Origin: Spirogloea muscicola
Lineage: Eukaryota > Streptophyta > Zygnematophyceae > Spirogloeales > Spirogloeaceae
Reading direction: 5' to 3'
NCBI GenBank assembly: GCA_009602725.1
Contig: WELB01000160.1
Coordinates: forward strand, 297,715 to 327,272
DNA: 29,558 nt
Positions 5,095 to 29,558 of this stretch are shown here, piece by piece. How positions within the stretch are numbered: position 1 is the first letter of the stretch; each line of letters opens with the position of its first letter. The position numbers and the translations under genes were made by a program. A model generated the notes under the pieces. It had not been told where the DNA came from and did no database searches. It was given only the letters and a program-made list of their open reading frames with translations.

Positions 5095-5582
5095 AGCAGG
5101 CTGATGTCTGGAGCACCACAGGCATGTGCACCACAGGCTGTAGTTTTTTGTAGCCCAAAGCCACCGACCGCAAGGTGGCCACAGACTGTTCCTGTCAGAT
5201 GAGCTGGCATTAAGGCGCTTGCCTTGCTTCATGGAGTCCTTTTTCAGCTTGGTTGCACTTTGCCAGATGTACTCTGCCCTGATTAGTAGGCAAGAGCTGC
5301 ATTGACTGATCGCAATTATGTCCTGGATATTCCCTTGTTATTGCATCTTGGGAAGGGATGCACTTTCAAACACGAGAGCCAATCTATCCGAGCTGCCATT
5401 TGTGCCTCTCTCTTTACCTTGGTAGATAGATGAAGCTTCAGAGGTATAATACTTGGTTATAAGCTAGGCATGTTGCAAGCTTCAAGCTTTCTTCAAGGGT
5501 GTAGCACTATCACAACAAGCAACAATATGATATTACAAACGATAAGAGTACACTACACTGATAAAGCATAGTACTATCAACC

Positions 5583-5587
5583 TGTAA
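5583..5587 (+). terminator. Possible TGTAA polyadenylation element for the methyltransferase gene
   Basis: First TGTAA on the plus strand after the stop at 5094. TGTAA is the standard near-upstream polyadenylation element in green algae. The implied 3' UTR is about 500 bases. A pentamer occurs often by chance. Confidence 0.3.
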
Positions 5588-5782
5588 GACAAAGACACCC
5601 CGTGTTCAACTAGTAAAATGAGCAATGCAGATGACCAACACCCAGTATCACTGATGTCCATCTGCCCGATCCTCAGTGTGCCTGGCCCAGGTAGCCCAAA
5701 ACTACTGTACAAGCTCCCTGCATGTGGGAGCTCTAAGTGGCCTCCAAATGAAAGAATGGTGAAGGGCAGAACAGGCAGGCTT

Positions 5783-5787
5783 TTACA
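5783..5787 (-). terminator. Possible TGTAA polyadenylation element for RPB8
   Basis: TGTAA on the minus strand about 140 bases after the RPB8 stop codon at 5926, the spacing expected for a green-algal 3' end. No other evidence. Confidence 0.3.
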
Positions 5788-5925
5788 GCGCTACCAGGCG
5801 CTCCTGCATACACTTGTCGACATCCCTCTGAATGTTGGCATACTATGGACCAGTACTGGCTTGGCAGCCGACAAGGCAAGGGGCACTGGTGGCCAAAAGA
5901 ACGGGAAAGAGGGCTGCATAGGCCT

Positions 5926-6980
5926 TCAGGACACACGACGTATCAGACAGTATAACCGCTGATCCAGCTTGAGGTCCTTCAGGTGGCTCATGTCGCCGGC
6001 CAGCCTCATTAGCAGGCCGCCATATGAAATGTGCACTTCACTGCACAGTGTAAGGAGGCACTGTACCTAATTAAGTGAGCAGTAATTGCTTAGCACAGAT
6101 CTCAGCCGTGGCTGTTAAGTTATTTTGTTTGCAGCTTAGCAGAAATGAATAAGGAGCAGCAAGCACAAGGTGTGGTCGCGCGACGAGCTTACGCCTTGGA
6201 GCCCTCCAACCCACCCCACTGGTACAGCTTGCCATATGTGACATACTCGTATTGGTCCATCAGCGACTTCTTCTTTGACTGCAGGCTGACAGCAACTATC
6301 AGCAGGTTCTGCTTAGCTTCAGAGAAGAAACAGCCGACAATGCTACCAAGCAAGAGCGTGCTGGGCATGCGGGCACGCATGTAACATGGTCAAGAAGCTA
6401 ACCCCACTGTCAAACCCACAACCTGAGAAACTAAGAGCCCAAACCTCAAACCCCAAACCCAAACCCCTTGCGCCTAAATTTTGGGCCTGAGCTGCTCAGG
6501 CCTAATCACCCAGCTCAACGAGCAGCCTCTGACTGCAGAGCACGGTTCTGCTGCAGCTGGCGGGAGTGGCAGGAAGCAGGTAGCGAGACCTGGTCAAAGA
6601 AGCCCTCGTCCTGGGATCCGTCCAGGTTGAGCGTGGGCGCGAGCGCGAGCGCAAACTTGTCGTCGCGCTGCAGCGGGTAGACATCCACGTTGACGTCCAG
6701 CAGGAGGTCCATGTCGAACTGCTCGCTGTGTCCGATAAACCGCGACACTGGCGGCGCGGCAGCACCGGCCACCATCAGGCAACACCCACTTCAGTGCCAG
6801 TAGCAGTGGCGACGAGAGCAGGGCCCGCCATTCCTGACGTCGTGGGCGCCACCACTACCACCATGGGCAGCGGAAGCAGCCGTCAGGGCTGCCGAGGAAC
6901 GCACCCTTGTCGAACTTCTTGCCACCGGGGTCGACGTCGAGCACCGCGAAGATGTCCTCGAAGAGCACCTTGCCGGACAT
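5926..6980 (-). CDS. RPB8: DNA-directed RNA polymerases I, II and III shared subunit RPB8
   Basis: Small subunit common to the three nuclear RNA polymerases (RPABC3, POLR2H in human). Exons on the minus strand: 6980-6905, 6747-6590, 6278-6193, 6040-5926; 144 residues, close to the usual 146-150. Visible family blocks in order: LFEDIFAVLDVDPGGKKFDK at the N-terminus, the strand region FDMDLLLDVNVDVYPL, LALAPTLNLDG, the hallmark DQYEYVTYGKLYQ, the late SYGGLLMRL, and a C-terminal LYCLIRRVS. Start is the ATG at 6980; all three introns have GT-AG ends and the joins keep frame. The loop after GKLYQ is short, as in plant RPB8. Exons 1-2 are much richer in GC than exons 3-4. The intron 6589-6279 shows nothing else. 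Confidence 0.95.
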
Positions 6981-8508: not shown

Positions 8509-11500
8509 TTAATGCAATCGTGTAAGTTCCTCCACTTGCTTGCAAAGCTCCTCGACTGGAGTTTCCATCATCGCCGCAATCTCCTCCATGCGGCTCCGCT
8601 TCAGGTCAAGGAAAGACTCAATTAAGTCCCCGTCCAGAAAACCCTTGGCGTCCGACGTCTTGCGCTCATTGCTGCAATGCAGGCCAAAGCCGGAGCATGA
8701 GCACGTCAGCGGGACAGCTTCAAATGACGTGGTATTCCACTCAGGCATCTGCAAGTAGCAATGAACTCAGAGACAACCACTTCTGAAGTACTGCCCAATC
8801 ACGTCCTGCTATTGTTACCATGCAGCATAGCAAGGCCCTGCCGTGTACTAAACTACCCCCTCTTACTCCAACCCGCAGAGCTCACTATTCCCCTTCCCCC
8901 ATTCCCCCTGCCGCAGCTAGTGAAAATAACAATTCTCTTGATCTTGAACAGGGTCCTCTTGATCTCATTTAAAGAACTGGGAGGTCCTTCCAAATCTATT
9001 GAGGAAAGAAATTGCAAGAGGGAAGGGGGACATAGGTGACCAGGAGACACTTTGTCGCGAGAGGTTTCTAGCAGTAAGATGTGTCCTGTACTGCACCTGA
9101 ATGAGCGCCATTGCTCGTGGCTCAGCCCACCGACGCCCTTCACAACCTTGGTGAGGTGGTGTTGCAACCGCAGCAAGAATGCAAATTGATCGTGTGGCAA
9201 GGATGCGATGACGCCAATGACGCCGTTGACCGTGCCAAAGATTGTGGTCGGTATTTGAGGCGACTCAGAATCAGCCAAGCGCATCACTAAGGAGCCCGAC
9301 CTGAAACAATTGACAAACTCCCCCAGATGGTACTCGCCAACCACTTCCAAGCGGCTCCTCTCTTCGTCAGTGGCCGCATCGCTGCAGAATCAAGTAGCAA
9401 CACGTAAGGCACTAGGCAGCCAGAGCCAGCATCAGTATGAGCTGCAATCGAATGTAAGGTCCTCAAGAAGTCGTGCCGCTGAATACTGTCAGGCTGTTGT
9501 AAGTTGGTCATCTATTTGGTACAACTTCTGGCAGGTGGATAGAGCACAATTCCTGCTTGGTTGGCACAGGTGTTAGGCTGCAATGCAGCAATTCCAGTTC
9601 GTCCTCATACTCTGATGTGATAAATAAACACCCCACAAAGGGTAGCAGTTGCAAACATTACCTATTCTTTCGCACTGTAAAGAGATTAAAATTGTTCTCA
9701 GCACCAAGATAAGTATCATCGTCAAGGATATGTACACTCGTCATCCAATCCGGATTGTAGTCCCGTGCTATTTCCTCAATTGCACCTTCCTCAGGCTGCA
9801 GGCGTCAAGCATGCTGTCTTACAAAAGCATCAAGAGAAGCACAACAAATGCAGGGCAATAGGTATTGATAGCTCTGACAATGTGGTCATCTGCAACCCAA
9901 AATGTTGAGCACTCCTAAAACAGATTGATGCAATTACGCACCTTGTAGATAAGAAGCGAAATGCTCTTCATCAAGTCGCCAACTACAATGAAGTCGCCTC
10001 GTGATTGCACGTATAGGGCCAGGATGTGCCCGTGATGGCCACACTCGCTCTGAAGTTCCCGTGAGCTGTCATCCCTTTGTGACCACTTATACAGCTGAAT
10101 CTTCTGATTGATCCCAGCAAGAAGCTTCCCATTGAAAGCATTCAGATTGTACACTGCTCCTTTTGTCTCCTTCTCTGTGACCAACTGCAGCTTCTGATCC
10201 TCCACTGTGAATACCAGAATTCTTCCCTGGATGAGAGAGTCGTGAAGGTGAAAGAATATCATGGGAGTACAGTGTAATAGACAATTTCATGCAAGAGTTG
10301 AGCTTGTAGTGTATGACTAACTTGGTGCCCATAATGCTTGTCAGCTTAAGAATAAGGCCTCAAGGCTGCGGAGGACATGCACCGAACCTCAGAGACATGG
10401 CTTATGTAAGGCTCAGCACATGATGCACAAGCATCCAATCATCTTGTCATTGGAAAAATGAAATCAGTATCACCTTGGAGGGCTCGTTCTCCTCTGGCAG
10501 GGCGTATGCTGTCCCCACGACAAAGTAAGGGTTTGGATCATCTGCGAATGTACATGAAAGGATGGAACACCCATTTTCATAGGCATCTAAATGGAAAGAC
10601 GAGAGTATCTCAAATGTCTGATCATGAATGAGGCGCACAAAGAAGTGCTCTATATCCTCGCCATTTGACTGTATTGTCTTGAGGCTGCAAATAGCAAAAG
10701 TTCTGGATTGCTCCTGTTCCATTATCAGAACCACTTGATTAGTCAGACTCCTATAACAAGCGACTGTACACTTGGTTGCACATCGAATCAAATGCAGTTG
10801 CAAGGACCTTCTCAAAGTAGTAATAAGAGCTACTTGCTCTCTCTAGATCTTTGGGGCAAACGTCACTGATCCTTAGCTCCTCTTTCGAAGGCAGCTGCCT
10901 GTTATTTGAATTGCTCTCTATTGCTGCTTAATGTTGTTGCGAGCATGACCCAAGTCCAGCAATGAGGAGCCCAACCAGAGGCAATAGCGAGATGCCAAAC
11001 CTGATGAGCTATCCTGCGGGCATGCTCGCCTAGTGGTACAGTCCTGATGTGTAACTTTTGAATGTCATCTATGGTGCCTATGGTCAACTCGCCCTCCTTG
11101 CCTATTGCAAGACTGGCTCAGCAAGGCAGACAACAATGTCTCAGTACTTGTGACATGCTTGAGGTCAAGGCAAGCAGGTTTGTCATAAGCAAGATCGTCA
11201 ATGTAGAATAACAGACAGTGTGAGAAAGATGAAGTGAAGCGCACCTGTCTGGGAATGAAGCTGAGTTGAACGGGCACATGTGTTTAACCTCCTTAAGGTT
11301 CACATTGGAATACAGCAGCTTCCGATTGCTGCTGTATATTACGGTCGGCCGGTCGCTAGCTGCAAACACATGCGTAGCATTCTTGGACCGGAAAGTCCTC
11401 AGTGTGATTGGCTGTGTGCCAAGCGAAATCTTCTTCCGATCGGAGAGCCTTGCTTTATAGTCAATTGATCTCTCCACCACAAAGTTGAAGAGATGTCCAT

Positions 11501-14500
11501 CTCCAAGTGCACAGAGCAGATAAGGTACCTGGCACCACAACAGCCGCCTGCACAATAAAATAGAGGTGCTAGAGGTCTCGACTAAGACTAAAAGCTTTTG
11601 CATGAGATCTTTGACAGGGAATGAATCAGGTATAAAAAATGCTCAATCTTGACTCTGATCAATGTGATCTCATGATAATGGGCTCAGATGAAACTGCGTA
11701 CCCCCTCAAAGGAGCAAAAGAGGACGGATCTGGGAATGATTTCACCCCCCAGGCTCTCCTTTGCCACAAGCTCCAAGCTGGGCAAGGAGAACATCCTGAC
11801 ACTCACGTCTGTCCACATCCCCACCGCGGCCAACTGGCTGCTCTCAGCTCCTTCCTCTAGAGGATTCAAGTCTAGGCATGAGACCTCAAACTCAAGCTGC
11901 ACGTGCTTGACCTCCACCAGCTTGCCTTGAGCTATTTCTAGATAGACCAAGTTCCCTCCACCAGTGGCCAACAAGACCTGCCCCACCACAGGTGTTGTCA
12001 AGGGGAGGACATGATGACAATCTGCAGCAAACTATGGTTTACCTAACAGCAAGCTAGACATCAATAAGCCACAAGCAAGCATTCTCATTGCCTACTTTGC
12101 CTGAATCCGCTGTTCAGATTCCCAGACAACAATATCCAGCCGTTAAATTGTTGTTTATCTGCTTTTCATTACTCCCGAAGCTAATTGGCCTTGTTGTAAG
12201 ACAGACACGCAAAGGCACATGCAAATGAAAGTAAGGTCCAGATTAGGATAGGGTCCGCTTCCAGTCAAGAAAGTTGCATATATGTTAATGCAAAAGTCAT
12301 GCGGGCACCTGTGAAGCATTGGCAGTGGCTACGTTGATTGTGATGCCGGAAGGGGCTTTCCACTCTGCTATAGCTTTGAGTGTGGCAGCATCCACAAGCC
12401 GCAGGCACCCAGCAGTGACCTGCCAAGAGACATAATCAACAAACAGGCAGCATTCTCACAACCTGCGTGGCTCATCTGCTGAAGCTGGTGTGCATACTGT
12501 TGGGCCCTAGACAGCACGGAAGCTTTGGGGCCAGCAACAAGGATATGCAGCTCACATAAGGGCAAGACACATGCTAAGGCTGCAGTAGATGGACAATAAC
12601 ATACTCAAGAAAATAAAACCAGAAGGTGACATCTTTGAAACTAGACTGAATTATATAGTCAGACCTCAGACAACACCCCAGTTGCCATATCGTGCCAAGA
12701 GCAGAGGCCTTACCTGGACAAGTTGATCGTGAACAGCATTGCCACAGAAGAGCGTCTGTGCCTCTGAATCAAAACCCTCCACCTCAGTCTCGTCTAATTC
12801 GTCATCAGCATTAATTGCCAATATTCGAGTCTCGCTTATGAAGGTGACCACCAAGTACGTGTCATAGGCATCCATGGATGACGCACGTAAGGACCACATG
12901 CCTTTTATTCCTGGTAACTCAACGGCTGCCTGTGATGATGCACGCCATAACAATCACAACAAAGCCAACAGATCTACCAGACCTTTGAGAAGAAGTGCAG
13001 TCTCCATCATCATAAGCTTGCTAGCTTAGGGTAGTATATCAAGCTGCTACACGCATATATTGAGCCCATGAGAATTCAAAGCTGTGACTCTAAAAGGCAT
13101 CAGTTGGAATGGTTGATCAGCCAGATTATCCACTTTCAGGATGAGGAACAGAGAGCCCCTTCATTCCAGTGTAAAGCCTTCAATGTAAAAGCATGCCTAC
13201 ATCTAAGGTCTTTAAGAGGGCCCAGCACCTGCTCATTGATACCAATACCATTTCGAATGATGCGCAGAGACCCATCCTTGAATGCCCCGGAGCACGTGAC
13301 GACTTGACCTTGACCCTGGCGCTCCAGGTCAACAACACAGAAGTCCACAATGGGGCCCAGGTTGACAAAATTCTCCAGGATCTCTACATAGGACCCTTTG
13401 GTATCTGGCTGCAGGTTGAGCTTGACAAGCTGCACAATCACGGCATAAGGTAAATCTGCTCAGCAGCAAGGCCACCAAAGTTCGAAGGTGAGAGTAATGC
13501 CTACAATATAAAAGCAGAAGACTTGAAACTGTGCTCCAATTTGAGATATGGCCACAAGAACCTCACAACCAGCTAGATAAGTGTAGCACGTTGCCTTTGC
13601 CTATGCTTAGCAGAAGCCTTACAGACCCACATTAGCTGCCTCTCGAAAACCATGCTTGCGAGTATAGTGTGTACCTGAGAATCCCCATAGCTTGAGCCTA
13701 TGTACACCACACCATTGTCCAGGTATGACAGCGTTGAACCAGCCGATGTCTCACCAAGTAGCTCCAGCTTCAACCCAAGCACCCTGCAGCAATACTCAAT
13801 GCTTAAAGCTGAACAACGCAACATCACAGCCGCCTGCCGACATCCATGTCCAGAACTGCTTGTACTAATGGTGTTGCTACTATGTGGGACCTTTAAGAAC
13901 ATTGATTGACTTGCGAGAGGAATACTGACAGAACCACCATACCTCTCCTTATCGTGATTGATGACCAGCAGGTTGAGCTGACCATTGCTATCACTCAAAA
14001 GGTAACGGGACCCGTCCGGATCAACTTGTCCATACGCATTAGTAACAAACTGGAGAATTTACAGAACTCTTTGAAGTCATTGACAAAGCGGAGCAGAAAA
14101 CGTTGCTATCTTGTAAGATACATAAGCACGAGCGCATGAATCTTACTACCAATTATGATAATTGTCAAGCAGTGCTGATGTCCCATTCCCATAGCCAGCA
14201 ATTGCTCAAGCAACTTACACCTCAAGCTAAGGACAAAGACATACATATCCATCCGCATAGTCCGTGCACAGTGGTTGACATGGCAACATCAAGCATAGCA
14301 TAAACTTTGCTAAGCAACTTTGATGCATGTGGAGCCACTTGGCGAAGATGGAACCTACAAAACGTATTGGGATGACTTTAAAGACAAGTCCATTGTGGTA
14401 CATGATTGTCTGCTCGCCAATGATGATGGCCCCACCCAACGGTAGCGGGACTGGTATAATGAAGCCCGCTCCTCCGTCAACATTTGACTGCATCCAGGGC

Positions 14501-16983
14501 CCCTCACTGAGATCCTTGTCTTTCAAGGAGACTTCATATGTCTTGACATGACGAGCATCCTTGTTGTCCTGTTGCACACAAGCAGACAATAGTAAGCCAA
14601 CCTGTAATCTAATGAGGACTCTGCTAAGCTTGATAGGCAGCTCGTCCCTTTGTTTTAATCAATGTGCTCAAGGAAGTACTCCAACAACAATGTGCTAAGC
14701 GGATCATCTCTCACTCCTACCTGATATAGTACGGCGATGGTAGGCTTTGCACAGCCATACAGAAATTTAATATCAAAGACTTGGAGCTCCTCCAATCTGA
14801 CAGTAAGCAGTACATAGGGACGTGAGAACAGCTTGATTGTGGTCATTCGGTGCTTCAAACAGCTGCGGAAAAATTCGACAGTAGATTCAGAAGTGACTGG
14901 AAACCCCATATGCAGCACAGCAGACAGTCATCTGGTCAACTGTGTGCACATTGACCTGATATTAAAGGCTTCCTTAAGCTGACCTTTGCTATCAATGGGT
15001 ATGACCTGCAAGCAGAGGCCACTGTTATACTTTGCCTAGACTTCTGGAAAACTTGGTCCTTTTGCATCACTGCTTGAGGCTATCAAATGCACATATGTAG
15101 CTGGTCGATTCATTGGTGCCACATGGCATGAATGACAAAAGCGCGTAGTTTTCACTTCTGTCTTGTAAGTTATCAAGGTATACAAAGAAGAGGCTGACCT
15201 TGAAGAGACCGTCATAGAGATGAAGGCCTATCAATCGACAATCTGGATCAATAATGCCAATCTGCATCACTAGCAAGTTGACAAGTAGAGCATGAGACAA
15301 GTAGATCTTGCCACAAGATATCTCTAGGTTATTTGTAATAGCTTCTCTTGTTTGCCCTGGAAGACGATATAGGAAGGGTGACAGGAATATTTAGTTGGTC
15401 CTGCTTTGAAAGACCGACTTGGGTTTTGCTGAGGCATCACAGCTGTAAGAGCACTCACGTGACCATTGACTGTCGGACGTCCGATGCGATCCGACACATC
15501 TCCCATAGCCCTGTAGTTGCAGCCAAAACACAGAGCGTCAGACCTGCTACAAGCTTGCAGCAAATCTTCAAGATGATGTGGGGCTCTGAGCTGTGTAAGT
15601 AGACTTTGGCTATATAAGCATGGAGAAATTATGATTACGCAATGCAGAATAAGAGATACTCATATTCAAGGGCACATGTGAAGCACAGCATGAGAAAGTC
15701 AACAAGCAGCAGCCTTTGAATCAAGGGCATCCCCGCAGAGCTCACTTGGTAACGAGCTCTCCAGTCTCAGAGTCATACTCAAGAACACAGAATTTGTAAC
15801 GCTCTGTTGACAAGAAGAGCACATCCTGCGACTCTCCCTGATATCCAGCAACGATACCGTAGAATCAGTCTCGGGGATGAGGTAATCCGGGGTAAGTTCA
15901 AGACTAGTCAAGGACATCTAGAGCAAGTATTGTGTAGTGTGATACAGACCAAGTAGTCAATGTTGTGCTACAGTAATATGATGCCAATGTATTGGCATTT
16001 CTCGGCCACCAAAATGGCTGGCCCTCAAGCCGCCCTCAGATATCAGCAAGCGTCTGCTGCTCCATGTTGTCCACCTGCAGCTCATTGATTGTTTGACCAG
16101 TAGCAGCTATTGATCACTGAAACTCTGTGCACTCTCGAAAGGGACAAGGCGTATACCGGAGGTCGGAAAAGCTCTAAGGTTGCAACTCGGCCATAGATGG
16201 GGACGTCCATGAGTGGCTGCAGCAAGAGCATAAGTGGATGATGTCAATTCAGGAGACACTATATCAATTGCAGCTCTGACAGGCACGATAAGAAGCAACC
16301 ACATGCAATTGGGCAAACCCCTGCCAAAACCCCAAGCCATGGAGCAGAAAGACTCAAGCATGCACGTTACCTGGAGGCCCTGCGGAGTGAGAAGATGTAT
16401 CTCGATGCGCGTGCATTTTCTGATAGCGTGCAGTCAAGGTAATGTCGAGCCCATATATTGCAGTCAGAGCAGTCAAGAGCAGTGAAGAGGTGTAATGCAC
16501 TGAGAAGGTAGCGGAGCCTTGCTAAGAGTCTCCTGACAGATTGTCTAGGAATTTCTTGCAACAGGCTTAAGTATGCATCTATTATGGTCTAAGCTAGGAG
16601 AAGCTGCATGAGAATAAGGAGGAGCGACAGCCTCAGAGTGGCGTGACCACCAGAGGGCAGTATGTAATATCCCTCTCCTACTGTCACTTAAAACGAAGAG
16701 CTGCTTCTGCAACTCTGCTTCTCTCGAAGCGACAACAAGACCATCGCCATCGTCCAACTGTGACGAATCAGTGCAAGGGGGACGCAGAACAGTGACGAGC
16801 AGCAGCCAGGAAGGGCATGTCAGGCTGCCAAGAGGAGATGCCACAGCACGGGAGCCGGCTGTGACGGGGAGACGGATACGCGACGATGAGGTTGAGCTCA
16901 GTGGGGCTGGTGAAGTTGCCGACGAGTGAGTGCGTCACGTTCGTCGGCTTGTGCGCCGTCACGCAGTAATTCCACACCGACAT
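8509..16983 (-). CDS. DDB1: DNA damage-binding protein 1, CUL4 E3 ligase adaptor
   Basis: Adaptor linking CUL4-RBX1 to DCAF/WD40 substrate receptors; acts in the nucleus and cytosol in DNA repair and protein turnover. Twenty-two exons: 16983-16880, 16419-16371, 16216-16157, 15837-15746, 15510-15459, 15261-15199, 15005-14956, 14796-14721, 14568-14359, 14049-13943, 13783-13675, 13429-13229, 12929-12714, 12419-12309, 11977-11702, 11528-11245, 11112-11001, 10713-10474, 10226-9942, 9795-9662, 9381-9097, 8671-8509. Every join is in frame; total 1,092 residues (plant DDB1 about 1,088). It begins [14 protein letters not shown]. Three beta-propellers (roughly A 1-360, B 390-700, C 705-1040) are seen through [81 protein letters not shown] and [13 protein letters not shown]. 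The C-terminal helical domain ends [14 protein letters not shown]-like and EELTRLH. Family-typical start; no in-frame ATG upstream. The first exon is GC-rich, later exons near 48-50%. Introns 16879-16420, 16156-15838, 12308-11978 and 9096-8672 hold no other gene. Confidence 0.97.
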
Positions 16984-18958: not shown

Positions 18959-21900
18959 CTACTCGCTCTCTGGCGTCGTGGTGGGCTTGTAGGGTGTCGG
19001 GGACGTGGGCGGTCGAAGGTCAGGGTACATGGTATAAGGGCTGAGTGGCCTGTTGGCATATGGCAGATCTGTTGACGACTTTGACGACGAGGCCAAGGTG
19101 CTATTTGTACTTGAGGACCCAGCCTCCCAGGGCCAGCGGAAGCCAGCCTTCACAGCCTGCGCAAACAATATCCGTGTGTTAGTGAAATTGTTATGACGCT
19201 GGGGTGGACCCCTCCATTAGATTCTTTGATTGCCTCACATGCCTTGCACCATGGGATTCCAAACGTCGCACCGTGCTTGTGACTGCACCCAGCGATGTGG
19301 CTACCCATGGCCGCAAGCCTGCTCCGACCTCCTTGAGAGGAGCTGGCACAGCTTCTGAAACCTTTGCTGCCAGTTGAGTGGGCTTCGCCTTGGCTTCTTC
19401 TATAGCCTGCACCGCCTTGTTGGCTTCAACAGCTGGCTCCAACTTGGGGACCTCGGCAGTGGATGGAGGTGGAGCCACCTCCTCCTTGACCGCGTCCGAT
19501 ACATCCTTCAAGAGTTCAACAACAGATTATAGAAACATTGTCACTCGAATCCCGTCGAACAGTAACTGCTCTGTGATGTACTTGCTCCTTGTGAATGAAC
19601 AGTTGAGCCAAATACTCTAATAACTATCAGCATTCCATACCTCTTTCAGGGCAGGAGGCTCTGCAGGGGCATTGACGTCCTCAGCCTGGAAATCCTTTTG
19701 CCAGGGCCAACGTAACTGCTGGACAACCTGCGCCGCGGCCCCCTTAAGGGGGGCCACAATGTCCTGTGCGAGAGGGGTGCTGGTGGATGAGCCCTCTGCC
19801 ATTTGCGGGGGGCCAGGGAACACCGGCGGCTTGAGGTCTTCGTATCTGTCCAAACGCTCACCAGAGGAGATTTATGGTCAAGTTTATCGTAAGGCTCTGA
19901 TGAGAGTATGTGCTCACAAAACACCATAAGAACCATAATTTTCCAAGAACTAGGAACTAAAGCAGCAATTGCCATTTGTAGTCACAACTGTCTGAGATCC
20001 TCTCAGGAACGAAGTAGCCATTTTCTTTCAGTTACAACCACAATAACAACGGCAAAATTCGACATATGCCACTGCAGAGCAGACAATGCCTGCATCTTGA
20101 GCAATGCAATAACTTGAGTCTGGTATTTGATATTGATCTGTCACCTGGTAAATGGAGACTGCGGTGTGGCATTCTGTGGCAGTGGCGCTTCTTCCACCTT
20201 GTCCTCAACCGCCGACTTGACCTCGCCAGCAGCTCCTTCGACCTTCTCGACCGTCTCTTGGAAAGCAGACTCAACCTTCTCCGGTGCATCTTGGACAGCA
20301 GACTCAACGTTTGCCGCAACCTCTTTCATGGTCTCAGCAGCCTCGCTCACGCCACTGTACATGAGGCAAGCTTCATTTTCAGTATGCTGGCACTTGAGGG
20401 CGACAGAAACAGCAAGTGATCACAACAACCTTGAAAGCAGCAATATGCTGCTCTACCGGCAACAGAAAGTACAAACACTGCTACTTTCATATCTAATGAC
20501 TGATTGGCAATAGAAGTTACTTGCTAACCTTGCAGGTGTTGCAGGACCATTCAGCTGCCAGGGCCAGCGGAAACCACCTAAAGCATCCAGCGGCTTCTGC
20601 GGGGCTGCCTCCTGAACCTTGCCCAGCACGTTATCGGCAACATCCCCAGCATCCTCCGAGGCCTCTTTGGATGCTTCCTTCACTGACTCATTGATTGGGT
20701 AGTCTGCAGCTTGGCCTGGTGGTGTACCCGACAGAGCCTGAGCAGCTGCCTCTGGCTCTTCAGCTGCCTCCGTGGCTTGAGATGTTACCTCCGACATCCT
20801 ACAGAAAACGAGTGATTCATGAGGAGTATGAAGGATATGATCTGGCAACTAGGCACGTGAAAATATTCACTGCTATTACTACGACTCAGCTACTGGCAAT
20901 CCAGATTAATACTGGTTGCTCCTCCATGACACTGCATGTAACTTTATTTAACTGCAGCCTCACTCACTTATCGCCAATGCTCTTCTGGGCCTCCTCAATG
21001 TTGATGTTGTCCTTCACCACCGATTCAACTTGGCTAGCAAGCCCCTCACTTTTCTCCGCTGTGGAATCGATGGCATCTTCAATCTTTGCCGGCACCTCTT
21101 GTGCAGCCTCAGTAGCCTCATCCACAGCACTGCAGGTGAACACAAGCTTGTTGTCAATCCAGTCCACAATTAAGCAGGAGAGAGACACCAAATGATGCTG
21201 AAACTATGCATGCATCAAGATTATTTTCTGGTCATGCCAATATCTCCTTACTACGAATTTTCGTCTAAACATCGCACACGATTTTCTGACCTTGCAGCTT
21301 CTGTAGCAGTATCACGCTGCCAGGGCCAGCGGAAGCCGCCAAACGGCTGTGGCAGCTTCTGCGGAGCAGCCTCAGCAGCTTCCTGGACATTAGCCGTAAA
21401 GTCTTCAACAATGCCGCGTGCACCCGCAGATGCAGCCTCAACCTTCTCAGAGGTATCCTGCACAGCATCTGATGCCTTATCTGCAGAGTCGTCCACTAAG
21501 TCCTTTGCCTGGGCTGGTGCCTCTCCCAGCACATCTTTGGAAGACATATCCCTCTCCTCGGCAGCTTCAGTGGCCTTAGAGGTCTCCCCCTCAATGGTTT
21601 CCACCGCCTGAGAGCTTAACTCAGATGCCCTACAAACATCCCAGCAAAGCATGTCAACGTCCCATGTCACGAGCAAGCAAAACATCTCAGGTTACCTGTT
21701 ACCTTCAATGCATGTGAGCTTAACTTGTAAGGAGTATCTCCTTTTTGTGGGCAAGCTCACGAGCCTGCGGACTCAGCTCACTTGTTGCTGATACCCTTGA
21801 TCGCGTCCTCAGCCTTCTGCCATGGCCACTCGAAGCCTTGCTGAGGCAGTGCCTCGGCGGCATCCCCAACCTTCTGCTTGACCGACTCCATAGCCTCCTG

Positions 21901-24900
21901 TGCCTGTCCTGGCACATTTTCTGCTTGCGGAAGCACTTCTTCCTTGATGAAATCTTGCGCCTGCTCCACTGTGGCCTGGGCTTGACCAGCAGTCACAGGA
22001 GAACTGCAGCCAAATAGAAAGCAAAGTGGACTTTGGGGTTTAGGGTTTAGGGTGCCATTTCGATCGAGAGAGTGTGATAAGGACATTGGCTAGTACTCTT
22101 CCGCATATCAAATAATGCTCAACATTAGAGCATATCTCAACCTTTGATGGGGTGCATTGTCAGCCTGGTGCTCGTGTTTCTTAATCGAGGCAAGACTCTG
22201 AGACTCACATATTGCGTGCTGCTGCCTGTGCCTGCTCCTGGGCATCCTGAGCAATCTGCCAAGGCCAGCGGAACCCCTGCTCCTGCACCTCGCCAGCCAC
22301 CTTGCCCACGCTGTCCTGCACCTGCTCAGCCGTGTCGCCTGCTTCTTCGCTTGCTTGCTTGCTCTCGAGTGGTATATCCTCGCCCTTCTGGGTCCCGTCC
22401 TCCACTGCAGGAGCCTCCTCGGGAGCACTGTATTGACCAGGTGGGAAGTAAGAAGAGCATCCTAAAGCTTTGCATGACAAGAAGTGGATGCAACCACCAA
22501 AATCTTCTATAGCACTGCAAGTAAGGCAAGGTCCACAAGACAGGAGATGAGCGCCAGATTAATTTACGGTCTTCTGCTTCACCAGAGTACATCTGAGGTG
22601 CTATGACATTCTTGCAAAGTGTGGTACATGTGCTTTTACAACGACTCTAGCTGACTGATCTGCAGTCTCGGAACAGAATATACAAACATTGTGGCAGCTG
22701 CTTCCTGTGCTTCCCTTTGCGCATCCTGCGCAATCTGCCACGGCCAGCGGAAGCCCTGCTCCTGCACGCTCTCAGCCACCTCGCCAGCCTTATCCTTTAC
22801 CTGCTCAACCACAGACTCGGCCTTGCCAACTGCAGCCTCTGCAGCAGGCTGCACCTCCTCCACAGCCTCCTCTGCTTGTCCAGCCCCATCTTGCACCTTG
22901 ATTGCATCCTCAGGTCGTATCCTGCAGGTAAAGCATTAATTTATCATTCACTTGCATCAGCTTCCCTGAATACTTACCCCAGATACCTGTAGTCAAGGCT
23001 GGTCATAAAACATTGGCGCAACTACTGATCTTTGGAGCGCATCTAGTCATGGGCAGTGCATAGGTATGACACGTGCTACGTACTTGTCCTTGACGGCACC
23101 ATCTGCCGCCTGGATTGCATCGTCCGCAATCTGCCAGGGCCAGCGGAAACCTTGCTCCTGCACATTGTCAGCCACCTCGCCAGCCTTGTCTTGCACCTCC
23201 TCGACAACAGACTTGGCCTTGCCAACTGCAGCCTCTGCGGCAGGCTGAGCCTCCTCCACAGCTTCCTCTATCTTTCCAGCCCCGTCCTCCATCTTGGCCT
23301 CAGCCTCAGGCGCGCTGTGCAGGTAAGCCATCAAGAAAAAGTCACCTGCAGTCTCCTAAATAAACTCCCAGTACAGCTAAGGTTGGCAATAGTAATGTAG
23401 CACCAAGTATGTTAGTAAGCAAGCACAAAAGACTTACTTGCTACTTTGCAGAGAGCATCTATGGTTATGGCAATGCATAGGTGTAGTGAGGTGCTACGAA
23501 CATGTCCTTGGCCGCTTGCTTCGAGTCTTCCACAATCTGCCAGGGCCAGCGGAACTCGGAGTCCTGGACCTTCTCAGCAGCGCCGCTGACCGATTCCTGG
23601 ACCTGCCCAGCGGCCATCTCCACCTTGTCTGTTGCCTGTTCCGCCAGCGGTGTGTTGTCCTCGACAAGCTCCTCTGCCTTTTCAGTCACAGTGCTAGCTT
23701 GAGCAGAAGCCTCAGAAAAACTGCACCAGGATGACAACAAGCGAGAGTGTGAATTTGGGCAGACTGAATCAGGCAGCTGATAGCTCACGCAAGAAGGCGC
23801 AAATGTACAAACGTTGAGGTGCTACAAATGGAAGAGGCATCTCACGCATCGGCCGTTGCCTCCTCGGCCTTCTGCGGCAGTGTCTGTTGCCACGGCCAGC
23901 GGAAGCCTGTGTTCTGGACCTCCTCCGCTGTCTCCTGAACTTGCTGGGAAGCTGCACCAAGGACGTCAGTGACGGGCTCTGCTACCTCCTCAGCTGTTGA
24001 TTGCACTGTTGACAGAGCAGGCGTTGCGAGCTCCTTCGCAGATTCCACAGCATCCTTGGCCTTGTCTGTGACATCAGCGCTGCACACCAGAGAAGGGCCA
24101 CAACCTTACACATCCAAAGATGTACAAGTGAGAGCCGTCTACCTAAGAAGCTATAAGACAAGTCTTATCAAACCGAGATTTACGAAGGGAAGATACCCCA
24201 TACTAGAAATTCAAGCGGACCCAAACGACCAATCGTCAAATAGAACGTCTATAAGTATGCACCCCCTCGCACTTTAGACAGGAATATCTGAGTGCAAGCA
24301 ATCAAAATGCCATTGCCTGAGAAGCTCATTGGCTGCTGGCAATTCCCAATATCTACATAATATGACCAGAAAAGAAATGGTAGCACACGAGGGCCTGGTC
24401 TCCTGTACCTTGGGGTGTCCTCCACTTGCCACGGCCAGCGGAAGCCACTAACAGCACTCTGCGCCTTCTTTGGAGCCTCCTGCATGCCATCCACAACCTG
24501 CCCTGCTGCTGACCCAGCTTGCTCCTTGGCCTGCTGCATGCGTTGCATCCAGCAAGGTAATATGTCAGCAAAAATCTAGAAAACGACTTCTGCTTATCTC
24601 TGCAGGCAGTGGGACACATGGGACTTTCAATTTGCTGTACAAGCGTCAAGTGCAATCTGTTTAGTACATCTCTGAAGTAAATACATGTATGTATTCAGTA
24701 TGCTGCTCTGGAAGCACAGGAATCGCTGTGGGGGTCTTGCATGCAGCCTTCGCCTCACACCGTCACAATGAGCGCCAGGGTTTGCTCAACGCATTGCTGC
24801 AAGCTTGCTGTTCAGCACAAATTGTACCTGGGCAGCGGCCTCTCCCCTCTTGCGCTCTTCCTCAGCCTTGGCCTCCGCCTCCTCGATCGCCTTCCTGTCC

Positions 24901-27900
24901 TCCTCCTCCTTGGCCTTGGCCTCTGCCTCTGCCGCCTTCCTCTGCCTCTCCTCTTCGTCCTGCACAGCCTTTGCCTTGGCTGCACCTTCCTCCTTTAGCT
25001 GCACAAGGAGACGTACGATAATTATCTTCAGACAAGACAACACCAGAGTTCATCATATGATGGTCCTCGAGACTCTTCACACACGTAGTTATTCTGCTCC
25101 CTGTTTATGACACCATTGGATGTCATCTCGGCAGCTGTACTTGGAGAGGCTGAGGGGCTTATGGCGAACCTGCTGCACCTTGGCCTTGGCAGCTTCCTGC
25201 TGGTCGGCTATCTTCTTCTTGGCAGCCTCAGCGGCGCTGGCCAGTGCGCCGGCAACAGACTGCCCGGCCCTCTTGGCATCCTCAGCCGGCTTCTCCACTG
25301 CCTGCTCCGCAACCTTGGAGACCTCCGTGACCCTCTGCCACGGCCACCCGCCACCCAGCTGCCCGCTTGAGGCCTTCTGCGCAGACCCAATCTGCTGTGG
25401 TGGGGAGCCCAGATCGACCGACGCGGACGCCTCCGAGCGAACCCTGGCAAGAATGTCCTGCTTCTCCCGCGCGCTCAGGCTGCCAGACGCAGAAGACATG
25501 CACATCTCTTATCTGACTGCATACATGAAATGGTCGCAGCCCTTTCTTTTCTGCTGTTAAGAGGTGCAAGAAGTAACAATCTGAATATGTGCCATATCCT
25601 TTCAGTGGATCATGTGCAAGCAATTTGGGTTATTGGGTTATTCTGCTCACATCTTGCCCTCCCTGGCGGATGCCAAGGCCGCCACCTCGAGCGCCTTGGC
25701 CTCCTTGGCTGCCCGGGAGGCAGCTCCGGCCTTGGCCTTGATCTCGCTTGCGCGCCTCTCAAGGGCGGCCTTCTCTGCAGTCTGCTCCTCAGCCAGCCGC
25801 TTGGCCTCCGCCTCGTCCTCCTTGGCCTCTTGCAGCTGCTTGCTGAGCTTTGCCTGCAGATGGGCACACATTGACAATGAAGTGTTAGCTGCTGGCTGTA
25901 TCACGAAGTGAGTACAAACTGCAAAGTTGACCACTTTAAATGGCAACGTTAAGTACGATCACAGATGTTGTAATGCTCTGTCAAGGACCCTTACTACTGC
26001 TGCTGAGGGCTCTACTATCAAATAACTGACAAATGCTTCTAATACCCAAGTGCTCTCTCTTGATTGTGCCCCTGCCTCACCTGCAGAGCACGGGCCTTCT
26101 CTGCCTCCAGCTTCTTCTGCTCTGCCTCTCGCTCAGCAGCAGCCTGCCTTTCAGCTGCCTCCCGTTCCTGCTGAGCCTTGGCCCTCGTTTCTTCCTGCCG
26201 CTTTAACTCCATCTCCTTGTCCTGCCCAGACAGGTAAAACCTCAAATACGATCATCGATAACAGACTGCTATGAAGCAGTGTAACAGACGCACGCTGTAA
26301 CTGGTACAATCAAAGAAAGAGCAGGCATGTGATCATACTCAGAGCACAGGAAGCCAAAGTGTCTCAAGTACAGGTATTGATATGATAGTGGAGATTAACA
26401 TCATGATGGTACAACAAGAACAGACCCACATCATGATTGTCACTTACCTCCTGCTGCCGCTTGCTGCCTGCCACCTTCCTGCTGGCAGTTGCCGGCCTAC
26501 CATTGTCATCTCGCTGCAGCTGCGCTGCCGCTGCATTATCCCCCTCCTGAAGCTGGCCTTCAGATGGGGCCTCAGCAAGGAGCTCCTCAATCGGCCGCAG
26601 GGGAGCATCCTCTTCAGCCACGGCCTCGAGGGTCTTGTACTGAGACAAGTCCGGGTTGCTGATGATGGCAGCAATCAGCTCCGCAACCTGAGGAGACGAG
26701 CAAACAGCAAGTCCACTGTTAGCATCAGCACAATATAACAGTTCTGTGTTGAAAGCCAGTTGCTAGTCAATGTGCTGTGTCAAACCAGCAGCTTCTCGAA
26801 AGTAAAACGATATTCACATGAACATTATCAAAAGAGTCAAGTATATATTGTTGGTCTGCAGTGGGCACCATCTGCACAGCAATTTCAGGTATTCACAGCA
26901 TCAAATGGCAAGAATGCAAAAGAGTGCTCACCTGCAGGTTGGAGACTTGGCCCCCAAACTCGGTGTCCGGTGGGGCCAGGCGGAGATTGTGCGTATCCTT
27001 GTAGTCATCCTTGGGCCTCTCCATTCCCCCAGGCCGCACAATCTGCAGCGCAGGTCACAAGTTAGAACAACCTTGAATTATGTCCACAACCTATAGTTGG
27101 CTGATTCAGCTGCACCTGTGAGTCTCTGGACTACTGCTTACAGTGTAAGGCATGCCGCTTTCACGGAGCGCCTTCTCTGCCTGGGCTTTCCACACGAGCA
27201 CGCCCCAAAAGAGGCTGCAGCACATGGAGAGCATGCAAGCAAGTCTGAGCAGCGGTCATAGAATAGCTGGTAAGCAAGCCCACAACTCTTGCCCACAAGC
27301 TGCAAATGCAGCAACTATCCAGCAGCTACTGCAATGTATGCCAGTACCATTCTCTTGCAATTTGAATTGGAAACCACCTGCATGTTTGTGTATCAAGGCT
27401 ACCAGTTGCACTTAGGGACGTGTTACGTACTTCAGAAGGCCTGCCGGGAAGCCAGGCTTGCCAGTTCCCAGGGACGTGACAAGCACAAAGTGATTGACTT
27501 TCATATCCACAGCTGCAATTTGTGCCGTGCAGCAAGGACATTTGATGTAAGACATTGAAGGACTCAAAGCACAGCCCGTCAGACTGAACAGTTTATTAGT
27601 GGAGCTGCACGCAGGAACATGACTTCCAACATGGGTAGGTTACAAACAGGCTCAAATTGCAATACAACTGTGAAGCTGGTCATAGGTGCAGACACAAGGA
27701 CAGCAGCCGTGCCAACGCTGGACCTTACCTGCAGCAGTGAGGTCCTTGTTGGCCTTCCCATCAACCTTGTAAGGGCCTGTCACATCCAGCAGTGAGCTCT
27801 CTGACGCGCCCAGGGCGCTCACCACCGTACCAGCGTTCCCAATGGCGGCCTCCACGGACTCCGAGTCCTGGAGATCGACCTCCACAACCTCCACCTGCTT

Positions 27901-29558
27901 CTGCCTCCGGACGAGCCCCTTCGAGGAGACCAGGGTGGCAGCAAGGGCCTCAGTAGGGCGGCTCACAGGCCAATCAGGCAATCCATCAAAGCATGCTGTT
28001 GTTTACTTTGGTGGTGGACACGAGCTGACATTCCCATCTAATACATCTGTCCTGACTGGCCGATGCAGCTCAATCCAGCCGTCTCTTGTGCAGAATCAAA
28101 AGTAGGACTACGAGGCTGGGGACTGCAGGCGGCAGGCTGACCCCGAGGCTAGCCCAGAAGCCTCCAGGCTTGGCGGCAACTTCCAAGACCTGCAATGACC
28201 CAGGAAAAAAACAGCATCTTAGGCTGTCTTGTGATTGCTTAGCCGAGTTTCTGCCACTTCAAGGAATATGAGCTTCCACAACGAGAGCATAGTCTGTCCA
28301 AATTGCTTCCAGAGTGCAGCAAGCCATCAATGAACACTTGTGAGGGTGTTTGGTCCAACATTTCAAAGCTCACATCTGCCAGGATCTCCTTGGCCTTCTC
28401 TATGTTGCGAGCGCCGGCCCTGACACGGAAGCCAGCCTTCACCAGCTCCCTGTAGCACCAGAACATGGCAGCAATTGGACAAGAGGGTGGTGGCCCGTAG
28501 AGGCCAAAGGGACTAGCTTCTGGAGCATTCACCTTGCTCCAGCGGGACCTTGCTTCCAGCACGATAAATTGATGCAATGTATGTATCGCAAAAGCGCAGA
28601 AGCTTTTAAAGGAATGGCTTGGTAGAAGCAGGGACATTAAGTGTTGACAGATATGTTGATCATCTGAATTGTGTGGTGATGAATGCAAGACCAAGACTGC
28701 AAGTGGTTGTCATTGGGACTACCAGTGGTGACGAGCTCACCTCACAGTGCGGGAGCCCACTTTGCCAGTGGCGCCGGCAACGAAGACGACCTTGTTGTCG
28801 CGGGGGAGGTCCTTCGCAGGCCGACCCGAGCGTGCCACTGCGGTGCCGCCCTCGGGCCTCACGAGCTTGGTGGTGCCGCCGGCCTGCCGCTTGGATGCCG
28901 CGGCGCCGAGAGCGGCGCCAATGCCGCCCTTCTGCGTCCCCGCGGCACCCTTCGCTTTTGCAGGGCGCCCCGCCACCTTCTGCGTGCCACGCTCCCGCTC
29001 CGCCGGCTTCGGGAGCTTGCCGCCGATCGTCCTCCCTCCAGTGGCCGCGCGCTCGGTGTCGGCGGCCTTCTTCCCCAAGTTGAGAAAGCCAAACGGCCGC
29101 GAGGCTGCTCTTACAAAGTCACGCAGCCGAACGCAGCGTGCACGTCAAGCCATGAGCTCGCAGGACAGCACCCATGCCTGCGCTGGCCTCTGGGAAGGTG
29201 AGTCTCCAGCAATGGAGGGCTCAGATGATGGGGCCAAGGGCTCTCGCTCGACCTCCGTCGTCTATTACACTGGCATTGATGACCTTCAGCCTAGTGGTGT
29301 CACCACTAAAGTCTATACCCCTCTGTGTACCTGAGTAAGGGCTTCAGCTCACACACATTCCAGACTGCTAGATGACACAACTTGGGCCAACGAGCAGGCT
29401 GCAAGTAGTGGCTGCTTGACGAGGGACGTCATTACCTTCCTCCGCGACCTCCTGCTGCGGCGTCCTGGCGGCGCGCGGGGCCAGGCGGAGGCGGCGGCGG
29501 CGGTTGTGCGCAGGGGCCGCCCCCGGGGAGAGCTGCAGGCGGCGGTAGCCGCCGAGGG
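18959..29558 (-). CDS. TIC62: Giant Tic62-like protein: Rossmann domain plus WPW-repeat array and FNR motifs (5' partial)
   Basis: Land-plant Tic62 is a chloroplast protein that binds NADP(H) and recruits ferredoxin-NADP reductase (FNR) to membranes. Exons, minus strand: 29558-29436 (partial), 29104-28741, 28449-28374, 28189-28142, 27948-27729, 27512-27431, 27214-27142, 27042-26932, 26687-26448, 26221-26081, 25853-25651, 25479-25170, 24998-24828, 24533-24409, 24079-23846, 23720-23502, 23314-23084, 22921-22688, 22427-22209, 22003-21782, 21629-21291, 21129-20968, 20798-20529, 20354-20145, 19845-19641, 19505-19239, 19156-18959. All joins keep frame; about 1,764 residues visible. Order: transit-like leader, basic Gly/Lys/Ala linker, Rossmann domain (residues about 140-440), charged coiled coil, then WPW modules to a C-terminal FNR motif. 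Least certain are the 29104 acceptor, the 28142 donor and 27948 acceptor, and the donors at 25169, 23501 and 22687. Tic62 in land plants has about 500-650 residues, so the middle is a large expansion. One gene is favoured because phases match throughout and both ends are Tic62-like. Confidence 0.85.
18992..19051 (-). other. C-terminal FNR-recruitment motif of Tic62
   Basis: The last exon encodes RPLSPYTMYPDLRPPTSPTP, an almost exact match to the Ser/Pro-rich repeat by which land-plant Tic62 (and the C-terminus of TROL) binds FNR. It lies 11 residues before the stop, after a Ser/Thr-rich spacer following the last WPW motif. Confidence 0.9.
19824..20158 (-). other. FNR-recruitment-type motif split by an intron
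   Basis: Joining the end of exon 20354-20145 (SPFT plus two bases of Arg) to the start of exon 19845-19641 gives SPFTRYEDLKPP, followed by VFPGPP. Plant Tic62 repeats read close to SPYxxYEDLKPPTSP. The intron interrupts the Arg codon. Function by homology; the tail after KPP is diverged. Confidence 0.7.
22039..22052 (+). repeat. Two TTTAGGG units inside an intron
   Basis: Two tandem copies of the plant-type telomere heptamer, flanked by a partial third unit (gggg), lie in the intron 22208-22004 of the Tic62-like gene. A single unit is also present at 7960-7966. Too short to be a telomere remnant with any certainty. Confidence 0.5.
24828..26221 (-). other. Charged coiled-coil segment of the Tic62-like protein
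   Basis: Exons 26221-26081, 25853-25651 and 24998-24828 encode Glu/Lys/Ala/Arg/Gln-rich helix without Pro or Gly breaks (for example QEREAAERQAAAEREAEQKK), typical of a long coiled coil or single alpha helix. Exon 25479-25170 sits between them and carries a Ser/Gly-rich piece with the first motif copy, GGGWPWQ, before returning to Ala/Lys helix. It replaces the start of the Pro/Ser-rich tail of plant Tic62. Confidence 0.75.
26448..28810 (-). other. Tic62-type NAD(P)-binding Rossmann domain (domain within the Tic62-like gene)
   Basis: Atypical short-chain dehydrogenase fold. In order: VVFVAGATGKVGSRTV (dinucleotide loop, GxxGxxG type), AGFRVRAGARN, VEVVEVDLQD, GASESSLLDVTGPYKVD, VNHFVLVTSLGTGKPGFPA, LFWGVLVWKAQAEKAL, YTIVRPGGMERP, FGGQVSNLQVAELIA and a closing APLRPIEELLAE. 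These track pea and Arabidopsis Tic62 closely. No YxxxK catalytic pair is seen, as is usual for this group, so a binding or redox-sensing role is more likely than classic dehydrogenase activity. Confidence 0.92.
28812..29104 (-). other. Basic low-complexity linker before the Rossmann domain
   Basis: About 95 residues made mainly of Gly, Ala, Lys, Arg, Thr and Pro (for example GGRTIGGKLPKPAERERG), strongly positive. It follows a segment RPFGFLNLGKK and precedes DNKVVFVAGATG. The composition suggests a disordered cationic linker. Ordinary Tic62 has a shorter connection here. Confidence 0.6.

Follow-up and report, generated by a model that had tools for sequence, protein, structure and literature searches.

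Structure and conservation of the gene

The window, i.e. the whole stretch of 29,558 nucleotides analysed here, lies on a contig denoted C160 and contains on its minus strand a Tic62-type gene, in which a Rossmann domain and two putative FNR-binding motifs are separated by a long array of modules with a repeated Trp-Pro-Trp (WPW) motif. Tic62 is a chloroplast protein that keeps the enzyme FNR at photosynthetic membranes. The gene runs from 29556 to a stop codon at 18959 and has 26 exons in the window. All 25 introns are GT-AG, and the spliced frame consists of 1,738 codons without an in-frame stop. The gene model was built from genomic DNA, by joining exons and aligning them with two further copies of the gene. 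The 1,738 encoded residues make the protein about 3.3 times the size of pea Tic62 (534 residues), and approximately 1,254 residues separate the end of exon 7 (residue 419) from the start of the last exon (residue 1673). An earlier sequence-only reading of the locus had proposed a single gene of about three times the usual size with 27 exons joined in frame without a stop. The open frame and the size hold, as splice sites and frames are kept in three copies, while the number of exons found in the window is 26.

The 5' end of the gene is cut off. The contigs C160 and C91 stop there, and the upstream stretch of the third contig (C53:232500-235895) consists of N; the sequence 5' of exon 0 may be hard to assemble in all three copies. 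Exon 0 is thus partial (29436..29556). It is rich in Arg, Ala and Pro, is a candidate for the end of a transit peptide, joins exon 1 in frame through a GT-AG intron and is kept in the three copies.

The three loci (C53, C91 and C160, the last being in the window) carry copies that are about 85% identical as DNA. Identity among the copies is 87-99% in exons and 68-91% in introns. Intron indels are of any length, while exon length differences are multiples of three when exon 3 is corrected as described below. The splice sites are conserved in both other copies, and the open frames are 1738, 1738 and 1741 residues long. Overall dN/dS among the copies is 0.26-0.31. The lowest regional values, 0.14-0.22, belong to both the Rossmann domain and exons 8-11; the N-terminal extension has 0.22-0.32, the WPW repeats have 0.29-0.33 and the C-terminal exons 0.33-0.38. 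Since dN/dS is low in all five regions and both frames and splice sites are kept, the gene appears to be real and under purifying selection along its full length. At the level of sequence, this confirms one gene and not a chance reading frame.

The Rossmann domain is of Tic62 type

Exon 1 (28741..29104) encodes a basic N-terminal extension and the start of the Rossmann domain, which continues through exon 2 (28374..28449), exon 3 (27729..27918) and exons 4-7 (27512-27431, 27214-27142, 27042-26932 and 26687-26448). For exon 3 the acceptor at 27918 was chosen over that at 27948, because four extra bases just upstream in copy C91 would shift the frame of that copy if the latter were used. The Rossmann part matches Pfam NAD_binding_10 with an E-value of 2e-35 and 122.7 bits, against a cut-off of 27.2, a score obtained with the longer exon 3 (acceptor 27948). 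The GxxGxxG motif is present as GATGKVG in exon 1. In exons 4-7, the group I-like stretch ERPKDDYKDTH agrees with the signature of group I, E-R-P/A-T-D-x-Ar-K/G-E-T-H (Balsera et al. 2007), at 8 of its 10 fixed positions. A search with the exon 6 peptide (E up to 1) returned three matches, which are the three copies, and nothing else. The assignment of this domain to Tic62 in the sequence-only reading is thereby borne out, and membership in group I is probable from these signatures. Pfam lists no rhodanese family for the Tic62-type protein, hence it does not qualify as TROL.

An array of WPW modules

The insert contains twelve WPW motifs, mostly GFRWPWQ. The first is divergent (GGWPWQ) and lies in exon 10, within a charged stretch encoded by exons 8-11 (24828..26221). 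The second, FRWPWQ (24426-24443), is found in exon 12 (24409..24533). Then follow six phase 2-2 exons, exons 13-18 (21782..24079), each encoding one FxWPWQ module of 73-78 residues. In exons 13-17 the motifs are at 23887-23904, 23537-23554, 23131-23148, 22735-22752 and 22256-22273, and in exon 18 the motif is FEWPWQ. The region of exons 19-21 (20529..21629) has FRWPWQ in exon 19 (21317-21334) and exon 21 (20555-20572), while exon 20 is without WPW. Exon 22 (20145..20354) is also a WPW-less module and ends with the first half of FNR motif 1 (QSPFTR). The second half of this motif, YEDLKPPVFPGPP, starts at 19844 in exon 23 (19641..19845) and is followed by LRWPWQ. After a Pro/Ala-rich stretch in exon 24 (19239..19505), exon 25 (18959..19156) contains FRWPWE (19124-19141), FNR motif 2 (within 18962-19078) and the stop codon. 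All these exons are on the minus strand. From exon 13 to exon 22, ten in a row are symmetric, of phase 2-2. The intron between exons 17 and 18 also holds a short telomere-like run, CCCTAAACCCTAAACCCC, at 22052-22035 of the same strand.

All copies have twelve motifs, and 36 of 36 are conserved across the three. Pairwise identity among the twelve averages 87% over six positions of the motif and 15% in the flanks, which were compared without gaps. In the core modules the motifs are regularly spaced, 70-78 residues apart as judged from the tryptophan positions. The tail of 1,319 residues has 25 tryptophans, 24 of which sit in WPW motifs, and a shuffled tail contains at most one WPW (1,000 shuffles). 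The modules E15 and E16 differ by a dS of 0.5-0.8, compared with 0.16-0.18 between the gene copies, thus the module array predates the triplication of the gene. The sequence-only reading had described a multivalent insert of repeated modules, which agrees with the twelve motifs; the dominant FRWPWQ repeat was not named there.

The array seems to be confined to this gene. The DNA pattern for FRWPW[QE], which is blind to motifs that are split by an intron or lie in Ns, has 27 matches in the genome, nine each at C53, C91 and C160. As the backward pattern gives 32 matches, it is the clustering of the matches and not their number that counts. The idea that WPWQ is a motif common to many proteins was rejected, all 27 FRWPW[QE] matches being inside the three copies. 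Of 21 matches to the module in the genome, 20 belong to the three copies; the remaining one, at C212, is weak (E 0.6). Scans of viral contigs and of bacterial and archaeal genomes, which reach close relatives only, found no relatives of the module. The three papers found to contain RWPWQ concern other subjects, judged by the title and the start of the abstract.

The repeat region forms a long amphipathic pattern

In all three copies, the hydrophobicity of the repeat region (751-754 residues) has a peak at 98.0 degrees per residue, i.e. 3.67 residues per turn. The peak power is 0.103-0.109, about four times the shuffle mean, and the maximum among 40 shuffles per copy is 0.035-0.036. Neither the Rossmann domain nor the charged stretches encoded by exons 8-11 have a periodicity above their shuffle maxima. 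A joint helical peak of exons 8-11, obtained without shuffles, was dropped, as it falls below the shuffle maxima once the stretch is split in two. A coiled coil in exons 8-9 was also rejected, the helical periodicity there not being above that of shuffles. The insert had earlier been taken to be mainly coiled coil, a view that we replace by amphipathic helices with an 11/3 periodicity. An AlphaFold model of one module, based on 17 sequences, has a helix, a turn at GFRW and a second helix, and this is consistent with predicted helices that lack an independent fold.

FNR-binding motifs and a second candidate tether

FNR motif 2, SPYTMYPDLRPPTSPTP in exon 25, agrees with the published consensus for FNR binding (S-P-Y-x2-Y-x-D/E-L-K-P2-S/T/A-S/T-P-S/T-P) at 13 of 14 positions and matches the Tic62 peptide that was solved with FNR (PDB 3mhp_C) with an E-value of 6.9e-6. 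Up to E 10, the only other PDB match to the motif of the last exon is an Rrp45 chain (E 0.45). FNR motif 1, SPFTRYEDLKPPVFPGP, which is interrupted by the intron that separates exons 22 and 23, agrees with 10 of the 14 positions. Its sole PDB match up to E 10 is the same 3mhp peptide (E 0.0014). Across the genome the pattern Y-x-D-L-[KR]-P-P-x-x-P has seven matches, two per Tic62 copy and one at C15, versus one for the backward control. A weak match to the FNR motif at C83 (E 0.78) was taken as chance. As the proline motifs are homologous to the peptide in the solved complex, we infer that they bind FNR. The C-terminus was thus rightly predicted to bind FNR, with two motifs rather than one. 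The insert lies mostly between the Rossmann domain and the tether, as had been stated; however, FNR motif 1 is not terminal, and two further WPW motifs (exons 23 and 25) follow it.

The match at C15 belongs to a TROL-like gene (C15:1193194-1195700), which has rhodanese-like exons and a C-terminal FNR motif. The tail, SPYAQYPDLKPPTSPSPSPP, agrees with 14 of 14 consensus positions, and the rhodanese-like domain, in a segment assembled by eye out of two exons, is found by Pfam with an E-value of 1.1e-8. One copy of this gene was found, compared with three of Tic62. A further weak rhodanese match, at C96, has an E-value of 0.007 and one internal stop. In both Tic62 motif 1 (20145/19845) and the TROL-like motif an intron coincides with the second tyrosine or precedes it by one base, in phases 2 and 0, respectively. 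The TROL-like intron is near 6457 and 6650 of a stretch whose positions ~4195-6700 correspond to C15:1193194-1195700. This shared position is a possible hint at a common origin of the Tic62 and TROL tails. SSTDLP is found upstream of both Tic62 motif 2 and the TROL-like motif.

The FNR in the genome matches leaf-type chains with 551-592 bits and reaches 313-315 bits with other chains, which we take to be root-type. It is identical at 249 of 306 residues to chain 1qg0, presumably pea FNR. Tic62 and TROL, both known FNR tethers, thus appear from their sequences to be present in one streptophyte genome together with a leaf-type FNR.

A streptophyte genome with triplicated blocks

The small subunit of Rubisco, RbcS, was assembled by eye out of two exons. 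Its scores are 166-197 bits with 23 chains, land-plant ones among them and 9pvb the best, and 142-151 bits with five other chains and 8q04 (Chlorella, PMC11570498; papers given by PMC number are cited from excerpts of their text). The 117 residues of the query cover 124 residues of the algal chains and 116-119 of the plant chains, i.e. the long chlorophyte loop is missing. The five other chains are presumably from Chlamydomonas. Because RbcS is without the long loop and FNR is closest to leaf-type chains, the genome is that of a streptophyte and not of a chlorophyte, and the earlier wording of green algae at large was too broad. By these two proteins alone, a bryophyte would fit as well. Three similar RbcS loci (C39, C8 and C42) and a fourth at C441:8310-8799 were found.

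Next to the Tic62-type gene are exons of a DDB1/CPSF1/RSE1-type gene on the minus strand (~9915-14589 of the window; Pfam CPSF_A 5.1e-23, second propeller 3.3e-32). A CPSF_A gene is near Tic62 at all three loci (C91:496584-498127, C53:254933-256523 and C160:306807-308358), in collinear order. The remaining loci of the CPSF_A family likewise come in threes (35 matches in the genome). From the collinear neighbours and these other triplets we conclude that whole blocks were triplicated. The window also contains a tRNA pseudouridine synthase domain on the plus strand, at 1060-2166 (Pfam E 1.1e-9).

For Spirogloea muscicola of the Zygnematophyceae, a recent triplication of the genome has been reported (PMC7994812), and the triplicated collinear copies fit this species. 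The genome is most likely that of this alga or of a close relative. The flagellar families PACRG and IFT46 have no matches in the genome; the control genomes gave none either, so absence is not established by this search, which was run in the same way as that for CPSF_A with its 35 matches. The lack of matches is nevertheless what would be expected of Zygnematophyceae, which are not known to have flagella.

A possible mechanism and its alternatives

The sequence-only reading had proposed that the long spacer may organise FNR or other partners on thylakoids. We suggest that this streptophyte Tic62 could act as an NADP(H)-binding tether of FNR with its tail along lipid surfaces, a proposal that we consider to have an even chance of being right. 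The tail would be unfolded in solution and helical along a lipid surface, i.e. a thylakoid margin, an MGDG-rich membrane or a plastoglobule, and each WPW turn would be both an interfacial anchor and a hinge between helices. Binding of the tail to lipid is suggested by the 11/3 amphipathicity together with the conserved Trp-Pro-Trp turns; helices of the apolipoprotein, perilipin or alpha-synuclein kind fold upon lipid contact (PMC5889406). The C-terminal proline motifs would hold FNR at the lipid surface, as in plant Tic62. Given the presence of the Rossmann domain, it can be speculated that this domain responds to the NADP(H) state and adjusts the attachment accordingly. Binding through many weak anchors would be both strong and adjustable, and with symmetric exons the tail could change in length without a frameshift.

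Several observations weigh against this proposal. The tail is acidic, with a net charge of -92 over exons 12-21, which disfavours anionic lipids. The mean pLDDT of the AlphaFold module is 56, i.e. of low confidence. In Pfam the tail matches Apolipoprotein (E 5.3e-9) and ApoLp-III (E 4.7e-5), both below the curated cut-offs; for Apolipoprotein the score is 36.5 bits and the cut-off 90. The reversed sequence still matches Apolipoprotein (E 3e-4, 21 bits) and ApoLp-III (0.26), and the shuffled sequence matches neither, so the Apolipoprotein match reflects periodicity and not ancestry. Apolipoprotein ancestry was therefore rejected, and the match is kept as a likeness. The flank identity of 15% applies to all twelve modules compared without gaps; in a gapped alignment of the modules of exons 13-18, identity to the first row is 33-92%, and neighbouring flanks are clearly related, either by constraint or by youth. 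Finally, the start codon and most of the candidate transit peptide lie beyond the contig end or in Ns in all three copies, so plastid targeting is presumed.

The main rival is a scaffold of the EPYC1 or CsLinker kind that clusters its partners, in which the WPWQ motifs are stickers for pockets on a folded protein and the helices are spacers. Such linkers exist in algae (PMC11570498), and a sticker could explain why conservation within the module is by far the highest in the motif (87% compared with 15% in the ungapped flanks), why 36 of 36 are kept in the copies and why the spacing in the core modules is so regular at 70-78 residues. However, spacers need no 11/3 amphipathic pattern, yet the pattern is strong. 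Genome-wide, FRWPW[QE] uninterrupted by introns or Ns occurs only in the three copies and no motif-sharing protein family was seen; given the 32 matches of the backward pattern, a few chance matches elsewhere would have been unsurprising. On balance we find this scaffold less likely than the lipid-bound tether. Its partner could be FNR, a subunit of a photosystem or of cytochrome b6f, or another Tic62.

The tail could instead be a helical or disordered filler with an 11-residue repeat of LEA kind, induced by drying and protecting thylakoids or FNR in a subaerial alga. LEA-type proteins also use 11-residue amphipathic repeats. The tail is rich in Ala, Glu, Gln, Lys and Val, as would suit such a filler, and desiccation tolerance matters in streptophyte algae (PMC7289719). 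Against this, Pfam lists no LEA family for the tail, either up to E 1 or up to E 10, where the HMMER filters drop most matches above E 0.1. Conserved Trp-Pro-Trp motifs are not known as a feature of LEA proteins, and we find the filler improbable. It is far less credible that two or more adjacent genes are present, with a short Tic62 encoded apart from a helical protein that carries the FNR motif. Exon 7 does end past the Rossmann domain, and the gene model comes from genomic DNA alone; but 25 introns are in phase in three diverged copies with no internal stop, the last exon has the FNR motif of Tic62 type, and the order of the parts is that of plant Tic62.

Implications and comparison with known systems

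The FNR-binding module of Tic62 has been found only in vascular plants, where it is probably a recent acquisition (PMC1847441), and maize Tic62 is described without the FNR-binding tail (PMC4030315). Tic62 and TROL have been called specific to higher plants (PMC7984839) and are absent or not identified in Chlamydomonas (PMC11912148; PMC5683061). Duplications of TIC62 across Archaeplastida are surveyed in a paper from 2025 (PMC12531127), whose excerpt does not mention the FNR tail. Our results suggest that FNR tethering is older than vascular plants, in an unexpected form. A streptophyte alga with a leaf-type FNR, a TROL-like gene and a two-motif Tic62 would date the tethers before its split from land plants, and such an earlier origin would imply a later loss in moss, or else independent gains.

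More tentatively, and with the balance of probability somewhat against it, one may propose that tethering by Tic62 and TROL predates land plants and that the tether here became a perilipin-like multivalent coat of lipid surfaces, in which one NADP(H)-sensing protein with up to twelve WPW anchors holds FNR on thylakoid margins or plastoglobules. If true, this lipid coat would represent a new architecture by which the final enzyme of photosynthetic electron transport is positioned. The long dispute about membrane-bound FNR in cyclic versus linear flow becomes testable in an alga. As a repeat, a Trp-Pro-Trp motif carried by 11/3 helices is an unusual design, and one that is open to tests with short peptides.

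The protein is similar to the Tic62 of vascular plants (pea Q8SKU2, Arabidopsis At3g18890) both in the N-terminal Rossmann NAD(P)-binding domain and in the C-terminal FNR-binding S-P-Y-x2-Y-x-D/E-L-K-P-P motifs, of which there are two here and three to four there. The tail of plant Tic62 is Pro/Ser-rich, and here ~1,250 residues of helical WPW modules replace it. In total, the protein has at least 1,738 residues, while pea Tic62 has 534 (PMC1847441). The short Tic62 of moss and red algae (group I) has the Rossmann domain too, and the protein here agrees with most of the signature of that group; unlike the present protein, these short forms are without any FNR-binding tail (PMC1847441). The FNR-binding motif is common to TROL as well, but TROL has a rhodanese-like domain, and none is listed for the Tic62-type protein.

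The tail resembles the 11-mers of perilipin 4, apolipoproteins and alpha-synuclein in its 3.67 residues per turn and its long, weakly hydrophobic helices. It is distinct from them in being acidic, interrupted by WPW and below the curated Pfam cut-off. With the Rubisco linkers EPYC1 and CsLinker it has in common a repeated short motif, helical or disordered spacers and multivalency, the motifs being likened by description only, whereas the array here is joined to a Rossmann domain and FNR motifs.

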